Source: Bacteroidia bacterium
GTDB taxonomy: Bacteria; Bacteroidota; Bacteroidia; J057
NCBI GenBank assembly: GCA_019695295.1
Contig: JAIBAH010000034.1
Coordinates: 1-37,943 of the forward strand
DNA length: 37,943 nucleotides
Reading direction: 5' to 3'
In this document: in pieces, positions 249-37,943 of the stretch
How the letters are laid out: each line of letters starts with the position of its first letter
Position numbering within the stretch: the first letter of the stretch is position 1
Program-made: the position numbers and the translations under genes
Notes under the pieces: model-generated
What the model was told of the DNA's origin: nothing
What the model saw: only the letters and a program-made list of their open reading frames with translations
Databases searched by the model: none

Positions 249-1118
249 CTAAGTAAATACTATATCTGCTTTTATTGATTTAGCTATAAGATAATTTACA
301 AATGCAGAACAGGAAATAATCATATATTTTGCATCCTCAAAGTCGCAAATATCGTTATCCATTAAAGCATGTCTTATTCCTTTTTCATCACTCGTATAGC
401 CATAAATTTGACTAAATCCTCCTACTAATGAAGTATGTAGATTTATTTCCCCTTTTATTCTATTAAGGGCTACTCCTAATGAATCTTTTTCTTTATTTGA
501 AATAAGTTTTGCAATAGATTCTACTGCGGAAATTGATTCTTTAATAGAATTTCTATAATTTGGATTTTGTTTGTCAGACAAAAACTCTAATGCTGTTGTA
601 AGATGAATATTAGCTCCATTAAGAGATGTAAATGGTTTTGTTTGCTCTATTGCTTCTAAAAGTGATATTATTTCATATTCATTAGTAATAGGAGCAATTA
701 TTCCATTAATAAAACGATAAGCTGAGTTTTCTTTTTTTAATATTTGATTTGTTTTGTCAATAAAAGTATTATATATAAAATCATTTTGCGAAAAAGCGAG
801 CAAAAATTTTGATGAAAACTCTATTAAATCATAAATTTTATACCATGCAGTTTCAGGAGAAAGGAAAAAATCATGTAGTGATTCTTTAAATCTAAATGGT
901 TTACTGTCTAATGTCTTTTTGAAAAAATTATGCCAAATACCATCTGAAAAGTGTGTTTCATAACCACCCCCTACATTTTTAATTGGCATAAATAAGTATT
1001 TCGAGTATATGTTCCAAAGAGTATTTTTTAAGTCTTCGTTAATATAATTTATTTGCATAGCTCCTGAAATTGGTGTTATACCAATTCTTTGAGAAAATGA
1101 AAGTTCGTTATCTTGCAT
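249..1118 (-). CDS. AbiJ_NTD4/HEPN-like abortive infection protein
   Basis: Resembles the AbiJ family of phage-defence proteins: an AbiJ_NTD4-type N-terminal domain followed by a HEPN-like C-terminal helical domain. The N-terminal block begins at FSQRIGITP and continues through LKNTLWNIY and WHNFFKK; the C-terminal half has NYRNSIKESISAVESI, YGYTSDEKGIRHAL and a final CSAFVNYL helix, in the order typical of the family. HEPN domains are often RNases with an R/H motif; the RH in GIRHA is a candidate, but activity is inferred. I start at the ATG at 1118 (289 aa) because family members begin just before the FSxRxG block. An ATG at 1178 would add a 20-residue hydrophobic stretch (309 aa), which could be a real membrane anchor. 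The gene stands alone in DNA much richer in AT than the rest of the window, suggesting horizontal transfer. Confidence 0.75.
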   Translation of the reverse strand: MQDNELSFSQRIGITPISGAMQINYINEDLKNTLWNIYSKYLFMPIKNVGGGYETHFSDGIWHNFFKKTLDSKPFRFKESLHDFFLSPETAWYKIYDLIEFSSKFLLAFSQNDFIYNTFIDKTNQILKKENSAYRFINGIIAPITNEYEIISLLEAIEQTKPFTSLNGANIHLTTALEFLSDKQNPNYRNSIKESISAVESIAKLISNKEKDSLGVALNRIKGEINLHTSLVGGFSQIYGYTSDEKGIRHALMDNDICDFEDAKYMIISCSAFVNYLIAKSIKADIVFT

Positions 1119-1178
1119 AAAAATTAATATTATAAAACTAATAATTAAAATGTTTAAAATAATAACAACACCGAACAT

Positions 1179-25682: not shown

Positions 25683-28600
25683 TTACTCCACCCGGATCAT
25701 TCCGCCGGAAGTATGTGCATTAAATTCAGGTGCGTACATGCTCTGAATCGTAGCAATACCGGAAGAGAAAGAGCCTTTGTAATACGTTTTCAGTTCGTAT
25801 TCGATAATGTGGTCGCCTTTTGGGAGATTATCTATGAAGAAATGCGTAGCCACATCCCGGTTACTCTGATAATATCCGATTTTTCCATTGGATTTATAGG
25901 TAGAGATTTGTTCCACCGGCTCAAAACAACCTGCTCTCAAATCTTTCAGGTGTACATATTCCATATCTCTTCCGGTAGAAAATTCGAGTTTTACAAAAAT
26001 CTTATCTCCTGCCTGCAGACTCATTCCGTCTGATACCGGCATTTTATTGCCATATCTTTCCACATAATAGGTTTTCTTTAAAGACAAGCCACTTGTAGCG
26101 TTGGATACCGCATAAATCGGCTGGAAATACTGCCAGTATAAAGCTCCGTAACCATTCCCAATACTGTTTTTGGTGATAGTCCATTCTGCCATTTCAGGTT
26201 TGATTTCTTCCGGTTTCCAGCTTACTTTTACGTATCCTGTACCATCCTCTTCCACGCCTTTATCGGAAGGACTGAAGAACTGACCGCCGAATTTATAGTC
26301 GGTTTGATTGGAGCTTTCGAGCATATTTTCTCCTGTAAGGAAAAGCAGATTGCAGGCGGCCACAGTTGCAGTAGTCGTTTCCCAGGAGCGATTCCGTTTT
26401 TTGCGGAGCATCCAGTTTTTCACCTGATTTACGATTTCCTGGTCATCATAAATTTCATCAAAAGCCTCAGCGACCAAAGCCTGAGTTTCCACTGCGGACT
26501 CGTACCAGAAATATCCCCCCTTTTCATTCCATGACACTCCGTCTTCCTTATCTCTTACAGCAGAATTTTTGAGTGCGTCAAGAATCGTTTTGGCTCGGGC
26601 CGTTTCCCCTCTTCTGTGCAGTGCAAGCGCGAGCATTGCCTGACCAAAAGGAGTGTATTTACCGATATTTTTCACCGCACTTTCTGCAAAGAAGGTATAA
26701 GCCTTTTCTTCGGGTTCAGACATTTTTACCTCCGGATAAAAAGAACGGGTATAGAGCGCCTGAATATCCGAAATACTTGCAATATATTCCTCTTTTCTAT
26801 CTTCTTTTTTGGCGTCCTTATACACTTTCTGAATTTCATCATCAGAATATCTGACCGCTTTTTCCATTTTTTCCTTTACGGTTTCACTGGCTTTCACTCC
26901 AAGTTTATTCAGATGTCCGAAGCCTTCGAGCAAGAGACGGGTGATATAATTACTTGCACCACCGCCGGGGAACCAACTGAAACTTCCGTCACTGTTCTGA
27001 CGATCCCAAAGCGTTTTTTCGGCTTTATCCATCTCAGAAGCCATACGCTCCATATCCATCAGTGTCCCGATTCTTTTTTTCCAGTCATCCTGTTTTGCAT
27101 TCAGTATCCAGGGCGTTTCTTCCAGCATAGCCGACTTCAATTCTTCATTTTTGGAAAGCATATCTAAGATTCCCTCCTTGTTTTCGGAGCTTTTAGTCCA
27201 TTTTTCCAGTACTGATTTTACGGCGGGAGTACTGTTCAGTACATGATTGCTGATGGCATTGGCATAATACCGGCTGAATAACTGTTCAGAACATTCATGA
27301 GGGAACTCCATCAGGTAAGGCATGGATTGCAAGGCGTACCAGGCCGGATTTTCCGAAAACTCCATGGTAAACAAAGAGTTACGGATTCCTCTGTTCATAG
27401 AGAAAGACTCCCTGAGCCCGGGCATTATAAAAGTTTTTGTTTCCTTACTTTTTACATACAAAGGCAGGCTTTCGGTAATCAGGACATCGTCAGTGAGTAC
27501 AGGAAGTGCGTTTTCCTCCCCGTCCGCAAACTCTCCGGATTGTGCAATTACTCTGTAAGTAAGTGCCGAAACATCTTTGGGCACAGAAATACTCCATGTC
27601 AAAGAAGCATTCTGATTCATTGGCGCACTAAACGTTACTTCCGGGCTGCCGCCGTTGAGCATTTTAGCAGTCACATCCTGTCCGGAAATGATATCTGTAA
27701 ACTGAATCTGCGCTTTTCCCGTTAATTCTTTTCCGGTCTGATTAATTACCGTAGCAGCAAACTTCATATTATCTCCCATTCGTACAAAACGGGGGTTATT
27801 CGGCAGAATCATCATTGGCTTTTGCGTAAAGATATCAGAAGAAGTAATCTCTCCGGATTTTCCATCTTCAGTATGAGCAAATGCAGCAAATTTCCATTGG
27901 GTTAACGCTTCAGGACTGGTAAAATTCACCAGAACATCTCCTTCTGCATTGGTTTCAAGGTGAGGGAGGAAGAAAGCTGTTTCCTTCAGATTGGTTCTTA
28001 CGAATTTTTCTTTTTTCATTTCCACCGCCTGACCACTTACAGTCGATTTGGCATCCTGTTTCGCTCCCTCCGGAGTATCGGGTTCTTTGTCGGCTAAATC
28101 CGGAATGCCATCCGCATCTGACTCTTCGCTTACCAGTTTTTGAGTGTCGGGACTAACAGCAAAAGCAGCATATCCTGTCCCTGAATCTTTCGATTGTCCC
28201 ATACTATCCATTACTGCCATACTTGCTTCTGGTGCTTCTCCTTTTTTGCCGGATTTGGGTTTAAACCCGGCTGCTTTTTGTTTTTGAGCATAATAATTCA
28301 GCTCCGCAAAAGAAATATCTGCATTGGGAACTCTGGGTGTCCGGTTGATAAAATAGAAGGAAGGCGAGATAACGTCAAACCCTGAACCCTGACTTACTAC
28401 CGGATTATAATAATAGCGGTAGGGATTAGAATTCTGATTGCTGAAAGACGGAACGTACCAGGAATTATAGAAGATGGCGTCCAGGGATTTGTCATACATA
28501 AGCGCAAGCAATTCCGCAGAAACAGGGCTTCCGCCATTCAGTGCCGTAACGTTCAGTTTCCATTCCTCTCTGGCTCCCGGCACAAGCTTGTTGCGGAAAC

Positions 28601-31600
28601 TCATCCATTTTACCTTTAGTTTATGATTTTCGGATTTTACGGTAAAATTATCTTCAAAAGTCAGATACTGATTGTTTTTGATGGTAACCATTACAATCTG
28701 ATAATTTCCTTCCCAGCTTCCATCTACCGGCACTTCAACTATATTTTTTCCGCCCCGGATTTCTTTCAGGGTAGAATATACTACTCGTTTGTCTTTTACG
28801 ACGAGATAGTTCAGGTAGAGCATTTCATTCTGGGAATACAGATAATGTGTCAGCGTATTGCCGGCAATGATTTCCGGATTGGCAATGTGTGACCATAAAG
28901 TAGTGGTAAAAGGAGATTCATTCGAGGTAGAATCCCACAGGGTAAAACTACCGTTAAAGGTTGCCGTGTCACCTGTTTTGTCCACCACATTCATAGTGTA
29001 ATAATATCTTCCTACTTGTTGTGTACTTAATACAGTAGGGATAAAATTTACGGTATCCGCCGCAGAAAAAGGCATTTCTCCGGTTTTGGAAAGGCTTTTG
29101 ATATCCACTCCATAAAAATCCTTATCAGCAGGAATCAGATAAAAAGCAAGTGTTCCTCCTCTGGGTACGTTCTGATTGTCCACATTGTTGATATGTAACT
29201 CAACGGGTTTGAGTCCGGATTTATTCATGAACTCAGGAAAACTTGCGTAAGGGCGAACACTTTCCTTCGTAAGTACTACCGTTTGATCCAGTTCATAAAA
29301 CTCACCGGAAGCTTCGGATACTTTTGCTGTCATTAGAATGTACAGGGAAGTCAGGTTTTTAAGGGAATCTGTTTTGACGGGAGGAACGATTACATTGAAC
29401 TCTCCTTTCAAATCGGTTTCTGTTACTTTATTAAAAGAAGAAATCAGATTGTTGGATTCCCAGTAATTGCCTGTATAATGCCGGTATTCAACCTTTACCT
29501 CTACTTTTGCCCCTCTCAGCGGTACACCGGCATAATAAATGGCTTTTCCTCTGAGGGTTACACTGTCTCCGATTTCGACTTCATTCTTTACAGGAAGCGT
29601 TTCCACCCAGAATTTCGGTCTTTTATATTCTTCTATTTTCAGGATAAGTCTTCCGAAATACTTGCGGGAGGGCTGATTGTTTTGAATCCATTCTACAATT
29701 ACTTCTATTTCGCCTGAGGAGGTTTTGGGTAAAATAAGGGAGTCACTGAAACTTCCGTAGCGGTTGGTTATCAGGGTGTGTTCTGCCAGTTTTTCACCAT
29801 AAGTAATCCTGAAGGTATCTTCTTTAATGGGGATAAAAGTATTACTGCCCCGGTTATAGGGAATGGCTTTTATATACACCGTTTGTCCCGGGCGGTAAAT
29901 TTTGCGGTCAGAGAACATCAATACCCCCTGCTCGAGTATTTCTCCTCCGTAATCGTAGGTATAAGGGTCGATTTTTTCGTCAAGTTCCATTATTACAGGC
30001 CCGGAATCAATCGGAACCGGTTTCACTTCTTCTTTTTTGGGGGTATTTTTTTTCTTTTTATCCGGAGTAAGATTCATATCGGAAACCAGATTCCATGAAA
30101 CATAATCGCTTTCGGAAATGGTTAAAGTATTGGCCATTGTCTCAGTCCCGTTTCGGAATGCAAACATATACCGGAGATAGGAATCGCCTGAATACAGCGG
30201 CTTCACAAAATCAAAATGCCCTTTACTATCCGTACTGTAAGTACTGTCCTGCACAAAATCAATGGCTTTTTCGTCGGGGAAATAATAACGTACCGCCTGC
30301 ATTCCATCGAGGGGTTTACCGGTTTTACGGTCGGCAAAATACAATTTATAATACATAGGGTCATCTACATAATAAAAGGCAATATCGTTTACATAAAAAT
30401 GTACTGCCTGAACCGTCCCTGTTTTGGCGTTAAAACCGGCATTGTCCGACATTGCAAGCCAGTATTCCCCTTCTGAGATAGCCGGTATTTTGATTTCTTT
30501 GGTGTGATAACGATAATCTGAGGATTCAAAGGTTTCATCCCAGGATTGTACCGCAGTGAGCTTGGCAAATCCTTCCGGTTTGACACTGGCGGTAGTCGCA
30601 TTAAAAGGATAGAGACGAAACCATATCTGTCCGGCATTCCGTTGTCTGACCAATACCGGAATCGGGGTCATGGAGGGGTTTACTTCCGGAAAGGATAAAT
30701 CCATGCTTTTTGCACTTAAATCCTGCTGAATTTGTTTACACACCATCGCTCCGTGAGAGGTGGGATAACGCTTTATGGCTTCTTCACATATCCGGTTGGC
30801 TTTTATAAAATCCTGGAAATAAAGAGAGTCATTTTTATTGTCGCTGTACATATAGTTCAGCCCGCGGTTAGCATAGAACTTTGCCATGAAAGAATACACA
30901 TCGGTAACGGCGGGATGTTCATTGTTGAGCTTGGCTAACTTCTGTAAAGAGGCAATGTATAAGGAATCGGCGGATTTGCTGCCGTATGGAGCAACACTTC
31001 TGCCAAAATCCAGCCTTTCCAGGTCGGCAAGAATGAGCGCAAAGGTATCCTTGCGGGAAATATGAAGATTCAGCAGATTCTGATAAATATCCGTGGCAAT
31101 TTTATGGGCTGCGCTTGTATCCGGAGTAGTAAAATTCGTTGTGAGGTAAGTACGGATATCAGAAAGAGCAGCCTCCGGTTTTAACACAAAAGGACTGGGT
31201 ACCGGATCCGGGCTAATCCTGTCATTTTGAAAAAACTCCAGTGCATGATGTGTCATTACATCATAAATCGTAGGACGATACTGAAAAGAAAGCGCCTTTG
31301 ACTCAGGGTTCTGAAGTAAAATCCCCGAATATTCCACTACACTTAATCCTTTCAACCCATTTTTGTTGGAAATAGAATTGACATACAGACCAGTGATTTC
31401 TTTATAAAAACGCTTTAAGTCCCACGTATGATAATTATCGCTCATGGGCGTATTGTTCTCATTGATGTTGTTGATAATCCAGTATTGTCTGTTGAGGATA
31501 TCGTTGTAGGTATTCGCAAGTGTATTTTGCAAAATGGCATTTACAGGGAAGTTAGCTTTGCCGATTTCTTCTTTCAAAAAATCAATGTTGAGCGAGTCCA

Positions 31601-31850
31601 CAGTAGCGGCTTCTTCTATTGCTCCCTGATATTTCATAATATAAAATACCGCATTTACCCAATCCTGGGTTTTGTTCTGCTCTTTTGCTTTCTGAAGGAT
31701 TTTGTAGGCTGTAGTCCGGGCAGCCCTTAAGTTGGCTGCATCTTCGTTTTTAAAAAGTTCTTTCCAGTCAGTTTCTATCGGTGTAGTCTGACTGTATCCG
31801 GAAAGAACAAATAACATTAACAGAGGAATAGAAGCAATTAGTTTTTTCAT
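25683..31850 (-). CDS. Alpha-2-macroglobulin family protein, thioester type
   Basis: Very large secreted or periplasmic protein (2055 aa) that in characterised relatives traps attacking proteases: cleavage of a bait segment triggers a fold change and covalent capture by a thioester. Signal peptide: residues 1-21. MG-type beta domains occupy the first 1200 residues (for example MFSDRKIYRPGQTVYIKAIPYNRG). The A2M block VRTNLKETAFFLPHLETN and the SPEALTQWKF strand follow. The thioester motif is ECSEQ (Cys1520, Glu1522, Gln1523), then an alpha-toroid and receptor-like end. A variable stretch (about 1195-1290) before the A2M block includes a calcium-binding-like DADGIPDLADKEPDTP (from Asp1245) and is the likely bait region. 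The start at 31850 gives a clean signal peptide; an upstream ATG at 31925 would add 25 residues. No pbpC gene accompanies it. Confidence 0.9.
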   Translation of the reverse strand: MKKLIASIPLLMLFVLSGYSQTTPIETDWKELFKNEDAANLRAARTTAYKILQKAKEQNKTQDWVNAVFYIMKYQGAIEEAATVDSLNIDFLKEEIGKANFPVNAILQNTLANTYNDILNRQYWIINNINENNTPMSDNYHTWDLKRFYKEITGLYVNSISNKNGLKGLSVVEYSGILLQNPESKALSFQYRPTIYDVMTHHALEFFQNDRISPDPVPSPFVLKPEAALSDIRTYLTTNFTTPDTSAAHKIATDIYQNLLNLHISRKDTFALILADLERLDFGRSVAPYGSKSADSLYIASLQKLAKLNNEHPAVTDVYSFMAKFYANRGLNYMYSDNKNDSLYFQDFIKANRICEEAIKRYPTSHGAMVCKQIQQDLSAKSMDLSFPEVNPSMTPIPVLVRQRNAGQIWFRLYPFNATTASVKPEGFAKLTAVQSWDETFESSDYRYHTKEIKIPAISEGEYWLAMSDNAGFNAKTGTVQAVHFYVNDIAFYYVDDPMYYKLYFADRKTGKPLDGMQAVRYYFPDEKAIDFVQDSTYSTDSKGHFDFVKPLYSGDSYLRYMFAFRNGTETMANTLTISESDYVSWNLVSDMNLTPDKKKKNTPKKEEVKPVPIDSGPVIMELDEKIDPYTYDYGGEILEQGVLMFSDRKIYRPGQTVYIKAIPYNRGSNTFIPIKEDTFRITYGEKLAEHTLITNRYGSFSDSLILPKTSSGEIEVIVEWIQNNQPSRKYFGRLILKIEEYKRPKFWVETLPVKNEVEIGDSVTLRGKAIYYAGVPLRGAKVEVKVEYRHYTGNYWESNNLISSFNKVTETDLKGEFNVIVPPVKTDSLKNLTSLYILMTAKVSEASGEFYELDQTVVLTKESVRPYASFPEFMNKSGLKPVELHINNVDNQNVPRGGTLAFYLIPADKDFYGVDIKSLSKTGEMPFSAADTVNFIPTVLSTQQVGRYYYTMNVVDKTGDTATFNGSFTLWDSTSNESPFTTTLWSHIANPEIIAGNTLTHYLYSQNEMLYLNYLVVKDKRVVYSTLKEIRGGKNIVEVPVDGSWEGNYQIVMVTIKNNQYLTFEDNFTVKSENHKLKVKWMSFRNKLVPGAREEWKLNVTALNGGSPVSAELLALMYDKSLDAIFYNSWYVPSFSNQNSNPYRYYYNPVVSQGSGFDVISPSFYFINRTPRVPNADISFAELNYYAQKQKAAGFKPKSGKKGEAPEASMAVMDSMGQSKDSGTGYAAFAVSPDTQKLVSEESDADGIPDLADKEPDTPEGAKQDAKSTVSGQAVEMKKEKFVRTNLKETAFFLPHLETNAEGDVLVNFTSPEALTQWKFAAFAHTEDGKSGEITSSDIFTQKPMMILPNNPRFVRMGDNMKFAATVINQTGKELTGKAQIQFTDIISGQDVTAKMLNGGSPEVTFSAPMNQNASLTWSISVPKDVSALTYRVIAQSGEFADGEENALPVLTDDVLITESLPLYVKSKETKTFIMPGLRESFSMNRGIRNSLFTMEFSENPAWYALQSMPYLMEFPHECSEQLFSRYYANAISNHVLNSTPAVKSVLEKWTKSSENKEGILDMLSKNEELKSAMLEETPWILNAKQDDWKKRIGTLMDMERMASEMDKAEKTLWDRQNSDGSFSWFPGGGASNYITRLLLEGFGHLNKLGVKASETVKEKMEKAVRYSDDEIQKVYKDAKKEDRKEEYIASISDIQALYTRSFYPEVKMSEPEEKAYTFFAESAVKNIGKYTPFGQAMLALALHRRGETARAKTILDALKNSAVRDKEDGVSWNEKGGYFWYESAVETQALVAEAFDEIYDDQEIVNQVKNWMLRKKRNRSWETTTATVAACNLLFLTGENMLESSNQTDYKFGGQFFSPSDKGVEEDGTGYVKVSWKPEEIKPEMAEWTITKNSIGNGYGALYWQYFQPIYAVSNATSGLSLKKTYYVERYGNKMPVSDGMSLQAGDKIFVKLEFSTGRDMEYVHLKDLRAGCFEPVEQISTYKSNGKIGYYQSNRDVATHFFIDNLPKGDHIIEYELKTYYKGSFSSGIATIQSMYAPEFNAHTSGGMIRVE

Positions 31851-31956
31851 TATGAATATATGCCTGAATGAATAAAAATTATAAGATAATTTTTTAGACA
31901 GATTCTTAGTAACGAAAAAGTTCATATTAAATTTTCCCGTTCCTGAAAATCGTTTA

Positions 31957-37199: not shown

Positions 37200-37751
37200 T
37201 TCTTGAAAAGAAAGTTAATTAATATGTATAGTATCTTGTGGAAAAAAATGTTGAAATTTCATGAAAACAACTACTTAACGCATTTGAATCTATATTTGTT
37301 TAACTTTTTCTTCATTTTTTTTAAACAAAATTTATTTTATTATTCATTAAGATAAATTTCTGTATTTATAAAGTATCTCAGGGGTAGTGCTCACTCACAG
37401 AAAGCCGCCTTATGGCCTGGATGAACGATATTTTTATTGGGTAAAAAAGAAGAAATAATTCATATTTATACCCTTATTTTATCCTTATTTTTGAGTAAAA
37501 TATTTTTTTTTAATTTTTTTTAAAATTTTATAAAAATATCAATTCTTACTCTTAATATTTAATAAAATAATTATATATTATAATTATTTATAATATATAA
37601 AAATGATTATTAGTTATTTATGATTATTAAATAAAACAATAGAATTCTATTTCTTACCTTTTTATTTTTCAAAAAAGTATTAAAATTGCCCATTAAATCT
37701 CCAAAAAAGACAATTCAATAAATTTTATTTTTAATTATAAATATTACCCTT
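37200..37751. other. Extremely AT-rich gene-free stretch with a 13-bp inverted repeat
   Basis: From about 37440 the DNA is nearly all A and T. It contains a perfect inverted repeat TTATATATTATAA / TTATAATATATAA (37571-37600, loop TTAT), a 9-bp direct repeat TGATTATTA (37604 and 37621), and a perfect plus-strand -7 element TATATTTG at 37291-37298. No gene is seen. Confidence 0.6.
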
Positions 37752-37759
37752 TATATTTG
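37752..37759 (+). promoter_or_regulatory. -7-like element before the 58-bp repeats
   Basis: TATATTTG, a perfect TAnnTTTG, 35 nt before the first repeat unit and pointing into the array. The palindromic CGATAT-TTG-ATATCG (37770-37784) follows. In such AT-rich DNA a chance match is possible. Confidence 0.35.
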
Positions 37760-37793
37760 TAAAATAATTCGATATTTGATATCGTTATTATAC

Positions 37794-37943
37794 AAACAAG
37801 AGCAAGGGCTGAGGTTGATTCGCTAAATTAGTTTGAGTCCCTCGGTTTTTAAAACAAGAGCAAGGGCTGAGGTTGATTCGCTAAATTAGTTTGAGTCCCT
37901 CGGTTTTTAAAACAAGAGCAAGGGCTGAGGTCGATTCGCTAAA
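37794..37943. repeat. 58-bp tandem repeat, 2.6 copies, continues past the window
   Basis: Units start at 37794, 37852 and 37910 (AAACAAGAGC). The first two are identical over 58 bp; the third has one T-to-C change (37932) in the visible part and is cut by the window edge. Each unit contains CTGAGG and CCTCGG, which can pair (with one G-U) around a loop of about 25 nt, followed by TTTTT. Unit composition is balanced, in contrast to the AT-rich DNA before it. Confidence 0.95.

Follow-up and report, generated by a model that had tools for sequence, protein, structure and literature searches.

The window, that is the whole stretch of 37,943 nucleotides analysed here, closes inside a spacer-free array of 58-bp units that runs from position 37794 to the contig end. 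The initial annotation, made from the sequence alone, had described 2.6 visible units, identical over 58 bp, behind an AT-rich leader and a perfect -7 element aimed at them, and this description was accurate. Units 1 and 2 are identical, the partial third unit has one T-to-C change, and Tandem Repeats Finder gave 2.6 copies of period 58 (score 293, 98% match). The leader is 82% A+T between 37200 and 37793 and 87% between 37440 and 37793, against a window average of 59%. The sequences CTGAGG and CCTCGG and the T5 run that follows them were found as claimed. The features of the locus are as follows.

37689–37697, plus strand: LytTR-like direct repeat CCCATTAAA, 63 bp upstream of the -7 element
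37710–37718, plus strand: LytTR-like direct repeat ACAATTCAA, 42 bp upstream of the -7 element
37752–37759, plus strand: -7 element TATATTTG, a perfect match to the Bacteroidota TAnnTTTG type, pointing into the array
37766, plus strand: predicted transcription start, about 7 nt past the -7 element
37770–37784, plus strand: leader hairpin CGATAT-TTG-ATATCG of the predicted RNA, where isolated copies of family f1 have a 5' hairpin
37794–37851, plus strand: unit 1, 58 bp, covariance-model match of 74.9 bits
37799–37808, plus strand: unpaired 5' tail AGAGCAAGGG of unit 1, almost invariant in alignment A1
37809–37845, plus strand: bulged hairpin of unit 1
37809–37814 and 37840–37845, plus strand: outer stem CTGAGG/CCTCGG of this hairpin
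37815–37816, plus strand: 2-nt bulge TT
37817–37821 and 37835–37839, plus strand: inner helix GATTC/GAGTC (GAUUC/GAGUC in RNA)
37822–37825 and 37829–37832, plus strand: apical stem, the variable part of the hairpin
37846–37850, plus strand: T5 run after the hairpin, a weak intrinsic-terminator-like tail
37852–37909, plus strand: unit 2, identical to unit 1
37910–37943, plus strand: unit 3, partial, cut by the contig end

The transcription start was placed by the promoter spacing of Bacteroidota. The hairpin is strand-specific, since folding is seen for the sense strand (-17.3 kcal/mol, z -2.54) but not for its complement (z +0.05). A simple terminator scan gave no site at the array, because it demands an uninterrupted stem with a loop of 3–8, a rule that the bulged hairpin fails; scans of this kind, based on sigma-70 promoters and terminators, are ill-suited to Bacteroidota-type promoters and bulged hairpins. 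Elsewhere in the window, the minus strand encodes a 2080-aa bacterial alpha-2-macroglobulin-like protein (25683–31925).

The other end of the array was found on contig C34 of the same genome, which begins inside the same 58-bp repeat with two full units and a partial one (C34:1–168), the last of them ending in T6, and continues into a LytS-type histidine kinase gene. We infer that the window contig (C55) and C34 join within the array. If so, the array has at least six units, because the T/C variants of the two ends (T, T, C at one and T, T, T at the other) do not allow an overlap.

A DNA search detected related units in 17 of 100 relatives, and a covariance model found the RNA in 18 of the 22 genomes of the order, with up to 48 copies per genome; G002, G013, G019 and G020 gave no match above threshold. 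Among 395 sampled genomes of the class, the only ones outside the order to carry it were three of one further family. The RNA occurs both as isolated small RNA genes of about 50–85 nt and as arrays of 3–40 units, with unit lengths of 52–58 bp. The longest arrays are those of G005 (40 units of 56 bp) and G007 (18 units of 52 bp), and shorter ones were present in G009 (7 units), G008 (4) and G006 (3). The source genome also holds one isolated copy, of another subfamily, with a weak model score (E 0.006; C38, locus L108). In G007, four copies of one subfamily, each with its own upstream region, are clustered within 5 kb (L158, 4208–9025), three of them within 700 bp. A 19-unit array was found on a 6.4-kb contig labelled Okeania hirsuta, a cyanobacterium (L084, NZ_RCBY01000327.1). 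This contig is probably contaminating or associated Bacteroidia sequence: it encodes a dynamin-like GTPase that shares 61% identity with the G007 protein over 196 aa. All other named records with the RNA are uncultured Bacteroidia or Bacteroidetes MAGs. An exact 40-mer had no match in genome_contigs, nor the degenerate pattern in viral contigs, so that there is no sign of a phage origin.

Conservation of the hairpin was measured on two alignments. In alignment A2, made of 73 distinct sequences, standard pairs fill 99.1% of the pair cells and 10 of the 15 base pairs show double compensatory changes, counts that lean towards the structure because A2 was fitted to the covariance model; the MAFFT alignment A1, which was not so fitted, gave 9 of 15 independently. 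The covariation score on A2 was 0.523 versus 0.220 for shuffled alignments, and none of 500 shuffles reached it. Compensatory changes are found even between units of one array, in G007, where ATGC/GCAT and ACAC/GTGT both occur. At one position of the inner helix U-G is the commonest pair, which fits an RNA rather than the symmetry of a DNA palindrome. While neighbouring pairs covary freely, four of the 15 are invariant and a fifth has a single exception; the 5' tail AGAGCAAGGG, the 2-nt bulge and the inner helix are all almost invariant across the family. This pattern of invariant inner-helix pairs beside covarying ones suggests recognition by a protein. The isolated copies form at least four subfamilies, whose 5' parts differ from one another and are conserved within each, before the common hairpin; in family f1, most copies carry a 5' hairpin there. 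No Rfam family matched the array above its gathering score, and the isolated copies gave nothing even when hits with E values as high as 1 were admitted.

The promoter regions of the isolated copies show a regular organisation. These copies follow TANNNTTG, with direct repeats at -42 (n = 18), -63 (n = 16), -84 (n = 10) and -105 (n = 4), and few at other positions. The 7-mers CCATTCA and CCGTTCA are enriched 20- to 40-fold upstream of them, with a 21-bp period, and the isolated copy of the source genome has repeats at all four positions. Only one of the 90 TANNNTTG sites of the window, counting both strands, has two phased repeats, and it is the one at the array. In the other fetched loci, which were picked for holding the RNA and whose remaining sites serve as control, at least two phased repeats accompany 14 of 1572 TANNNTTG sites, and all 14 precede the RNA. 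Most other arrays have the same phasing, with leaders of about 90–143 nt, and the -7 element is poorly matched for two of them (L036 and L037). No TANNNTTG lies inside the 58-bp unit. From this organisation, the element at 37752 is likely the promoter of the array.

LytTR sites usually consist of 9-bp direct repeats with 10–13 bp between them (PMC11347149), and the repeats found here, recurring every 21 bp, have this operator spacing. Together with the gene linkage described next, the spacing leads us to propose that the LytS/LytTR-linked regulator may bind the phased repeats. A further set of repeats, 15 copies of a AAACAATC motif at exact 21-bp spacing, lies at 1577–1893 of the window, flanked by a tRNA gene and by a gene that encodes an AbiJ N-terminal domain (249–1178, minus strand). 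It resembles the LytTR-like direct repeats of this genome in period and core; no phased -7 element was found beside it.

In nine loci, the gene directly downstream of an isolated copy encodes a LytS-type histidine kinase of about 800 aa, and the gene after the kinase is a LytTR response regulator in all nine loci checked. G003 is a tenth genome with the RNA upstream of this kinase. In the source genome it is the array that precedes the orthologous gene (C34:382–2802), ending about 210 bp before it, so that the RNA lies just upstream of a conserved kinase in ten genomes and the source genome. The C34 kinase is 38–43% identical to those of the other loci, for most of them over about 750–795 aa. 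The LytTR regulator of the source genome is encoded on another contig (C208:5700–6461, 64% identity), where its domains were confirmed. Across the order, the kinase was found once in each of the 22 genomes and the regulator in 21. Four of these kinase-bearing genomes (G002, G013, G019 and G020) gave no RNA match above threshold, so this two-component system does not require the RNA.

The initial annotation had proposed that every unit could end a transcript, which is only half borne out. The hairpin and the T5 run are indeed present in the units, but the T-runs of internal units are short, 4–6 with a mean of 5.0 (81 units), as compared with 5–9 and a mean of 7.1 for isolated copies (61 copies). 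Last units of arrays are intermediate (mean 5.9, 9 units), though in G005 the final unit has the same T5 as the units before it. The shorter internal T-runs make read-through likely. If the serial terminators were strong, the later units would serve no purpose, and weak termination with read-through is thus the simplest reading. The early suggestion of tandem small RNAs, or else an uncharacterised element, is supported by these data: in relatives the unit also occurs as single genes, each behind a promoter of its own and followed by a longer T-run, and the tandem small RNA reading is further backed by the strong covariation of the hairpin and by the element at 37752, the likely promoter, whose activator-like repeats are correctly phased.

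We consider it probable, reasoning from sequence, that the locus is a small RNA gene under LytS/LytTR control, multiplied head to tail downstream of a single promoter and containing internal terminators of low efficiency. In this model, the kinase encoded on C34 and the regulator encoded on C208 would sense a signal, and the regulator would bind the direct repeats at -63 and -42 and activate transcription from TATATTTG. RNA polymerase would then transcribe the leader hairpin and the successive units, mostly passing the weak T5 tails, and stop at the last unit, with its longer T-run. Each unit would fold as a bulged hairpin with an invariant 5' tail, giving many copies of one recognition module per transcript. 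Array copies and co-regulated isolated copies elsewhere in the genome may together bind and titrate an RNA-binding protein. The computation itself shows the unit, the conservation of its fold, the phasing of the promoter and the linkage to the kinase and regulator genes, whereas transcription, read-through, control by this regulator and the decoy role are predictions.

This last step, in which the units act as a protein decoy by the logic of RsmX/Y/Z with a different RNA and a different protein, is plausible, if somewhat short of probable. The invariance of the inner helix and of the bulge speaks for binding by a protein, and a shared control of array and isolated copies fits the dosage of one module, as for RsmX/Y/Z (PMC7911923). 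As for the partner, CsrA/RsmA was found in none of the 22 genomes, with positive controls, and Hfq in none above the cut-off, and both were rejected. RRM proteins, the RbpB type, are present in 18 of the 22 genomes. They are missing from two of the RNA-carrying genomes, G014 and G018 (the latter only 56% complete), and an RRM protein as necessary partner is therefore not supported. More speculatively, and in our view rather unlikely in this full form, the array could represent a CsrA- and Hfq-independent type of titration, in which one two-component-driven concatemer of up to 40 bulged-hairpin modules soaks up an RNA-binding protein, and the number of units, alterable by recombination, sets the output.

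A close rival to the protein decoy keeps the same gene and the same control and takes the units as base-pairing small RNAs, like FopS, Qrr or NsiR1, with the tail AGAGCAAGGG as seed. The array would then raise the dosage of a single small RNA, either because some transcripts end at each unit or because an RNase cuts the concatemer. We regard this as a serious possibility, though a little below an even chance. An unpaired and nearly invariant tail fits pairing equally well as a decoy, 5' regions that differ among the four subfamilies and are conserved inside each behave as seeds would, and the FopS small RNAs of Bacteroides, of about 65–70 nt and multicopy, pair with susC mRNAs (PMC11697453). 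Against pairing, exact 12-mer complements to the tail outside the RNA genes were few and scattered, and the ten examined share no gene, a search that would miss a 7-nt seed. The absence of Hfq above the cut-off from all 22 genomes also speaks against it, and a seed leaves the invariance of the inner helix unexplained.

Alternatively, the array could be a cis-acting attenuator, a leader of serial terminators controlling the downstream gene, which is the kinase here and a dynamin-like GTPase in several relatives. In its favour, an isolated copy precedes the kinase gene on the same strand in ten genomes, at a distance of tens to a few hundred nt, and arrays lie about 75–300 nt upstream of a GTPase gene in G007, G008, G009, G010 and the Okeania-labelled contig. 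These GTPase genes, directly downstream of the array in four genomes of the family and in the Okeania-labelled contig, are on the same strand as the array (L033, 6320–8047; L035, 10820–12535; L037, 2016–3746, minus strand; G010:C354:350–2002), and some of the arrays also lie downstream of a TonB/TPR gene. However, roughly half of the isolated copies have a gene converging on them, the 40-unit array of G005 is in a genome with no detectable GTPase orthologue, and the array of the source genome stops about 210 bp short of the kinase start. We therefore hold attenuation to be improbable.

The GTPase itself showed only weak dynamin-type (LeoA/LeoBC) similarity in PADLOC. Homologues about 50% identical, without an adjoining array, are present in five other genomes, including the source genome (C125:7709–9418). 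A two-part system made of array and GTPase was rejected on the case of G005, and the location of the source-genome array, elsewhere and before the kinase, further counters such a pairing. A type III toxin-antitoxin RNA of the ToxIN kind was likewise discarded, the downstream gene being a LytS-type kinase or a dynamin-like GTPase and not a ToxN-type endoribonuclease.

A neutral minisatellite or a mobile repeat of the REP/BIME or MITE kind, merely varying in copy number, would account for copy numbers of 3 to 40 and for units homogenised within a genome. It is very unlikely, given that compensatory changes preserve the hairpin even within one array, that the phased activator-like repeats keep one orientation to the RNA, and that the position beside one gene pair is conserved in 11 genomes. 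Finally, a CRISPR array with its first spacers missing, suggested by tandem repeats behind an AT-rich leader, is refuted by the relatives, whose arrays of 40 (G005) and 18 (G007) contiguous units hold no spacer further in, and by isolated, promoter-borne copies in the same genomes as arrays.

With these data, a branch of Bacteroidia represented here solely by uncultured genomes gains an RNA family that Rfam lacks, and the family is tied to a two-component system present in nearly every genome of the order. The data also pose a question: with up to 40 serial terminator-like hairpins behind one promoter, why are the later units kept, when working terminators in the earlier ones would leave them rarely transcribed? 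Candidate answers are weak terminators, antitermination, processing or a sponge function, and the solution would tell how the number of units lets bacteria adjust the amount of a regulatory RNA.

The kind of gene proposed here, a multicopy, tandem, regulator-driven small RNA, is already known. The RNA family itself, of which we found no description in the literature, and a single-promoter concatemer of up to 40 units appear to be new. A close arrangement is that of NsiR1 in Nostoc sp. PCC 7120, which belongs to a different phylum and is likened here by its organisation: a tandem array of a small RNA of about 60 nt, upstream of a conserved regulatory gene (hetF for NsiR1), under one developmental regulator (PMC9045159). 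There, however, each of the 12 tandem copies has its own promoter (PMC9045159), whereas the 58-bp unit is promoterless and up to 40 units follow one promoter. Tandem small RNAs with terminators are also found in Pseudomonas aeruginosa, where read-through of the first terminator between PrrF1 and PrrF2 gives the longer PrrH (PMC4211561); these are two copies split by a unique intergenic stretch, as opposed to an array of up to 40.

Within the phylum, the FopS/GibS family of Bacteroides thetaiotaomicron has 14 members of 65–70 nt with a conserved 5' region and phylum-type promoters (PMC11697453). The present RNA is also multicopy, shorter than 90 nt and provided with a conserved 5' region, a likeness of description. 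The FopS members are not described as tandem arrays in that paper (PMC11697453), and the RRM proteins of the RbpB type were, as noted, not found in the RNA-carrying G014 and the incomplete G018. With respect to control, close parallels are RsmX, RsmY and RsmZ (and CsrB), paralogous small RNAs under GacS/GacA, some in tandem, with shared upstream sites and repeated hairpin motifs (PMC7911923). In our system, the copies have phased direct repeats in common and are linked to a two-component pair, LytS/LytTR, whose regulator may bind these repeats; control of the Csr/Rsm kind would fit this. The system differs in the type of this regulator, in a unit devoid of the GGA motif, and in an order of bacteria devoid of CsrA/RsmA.
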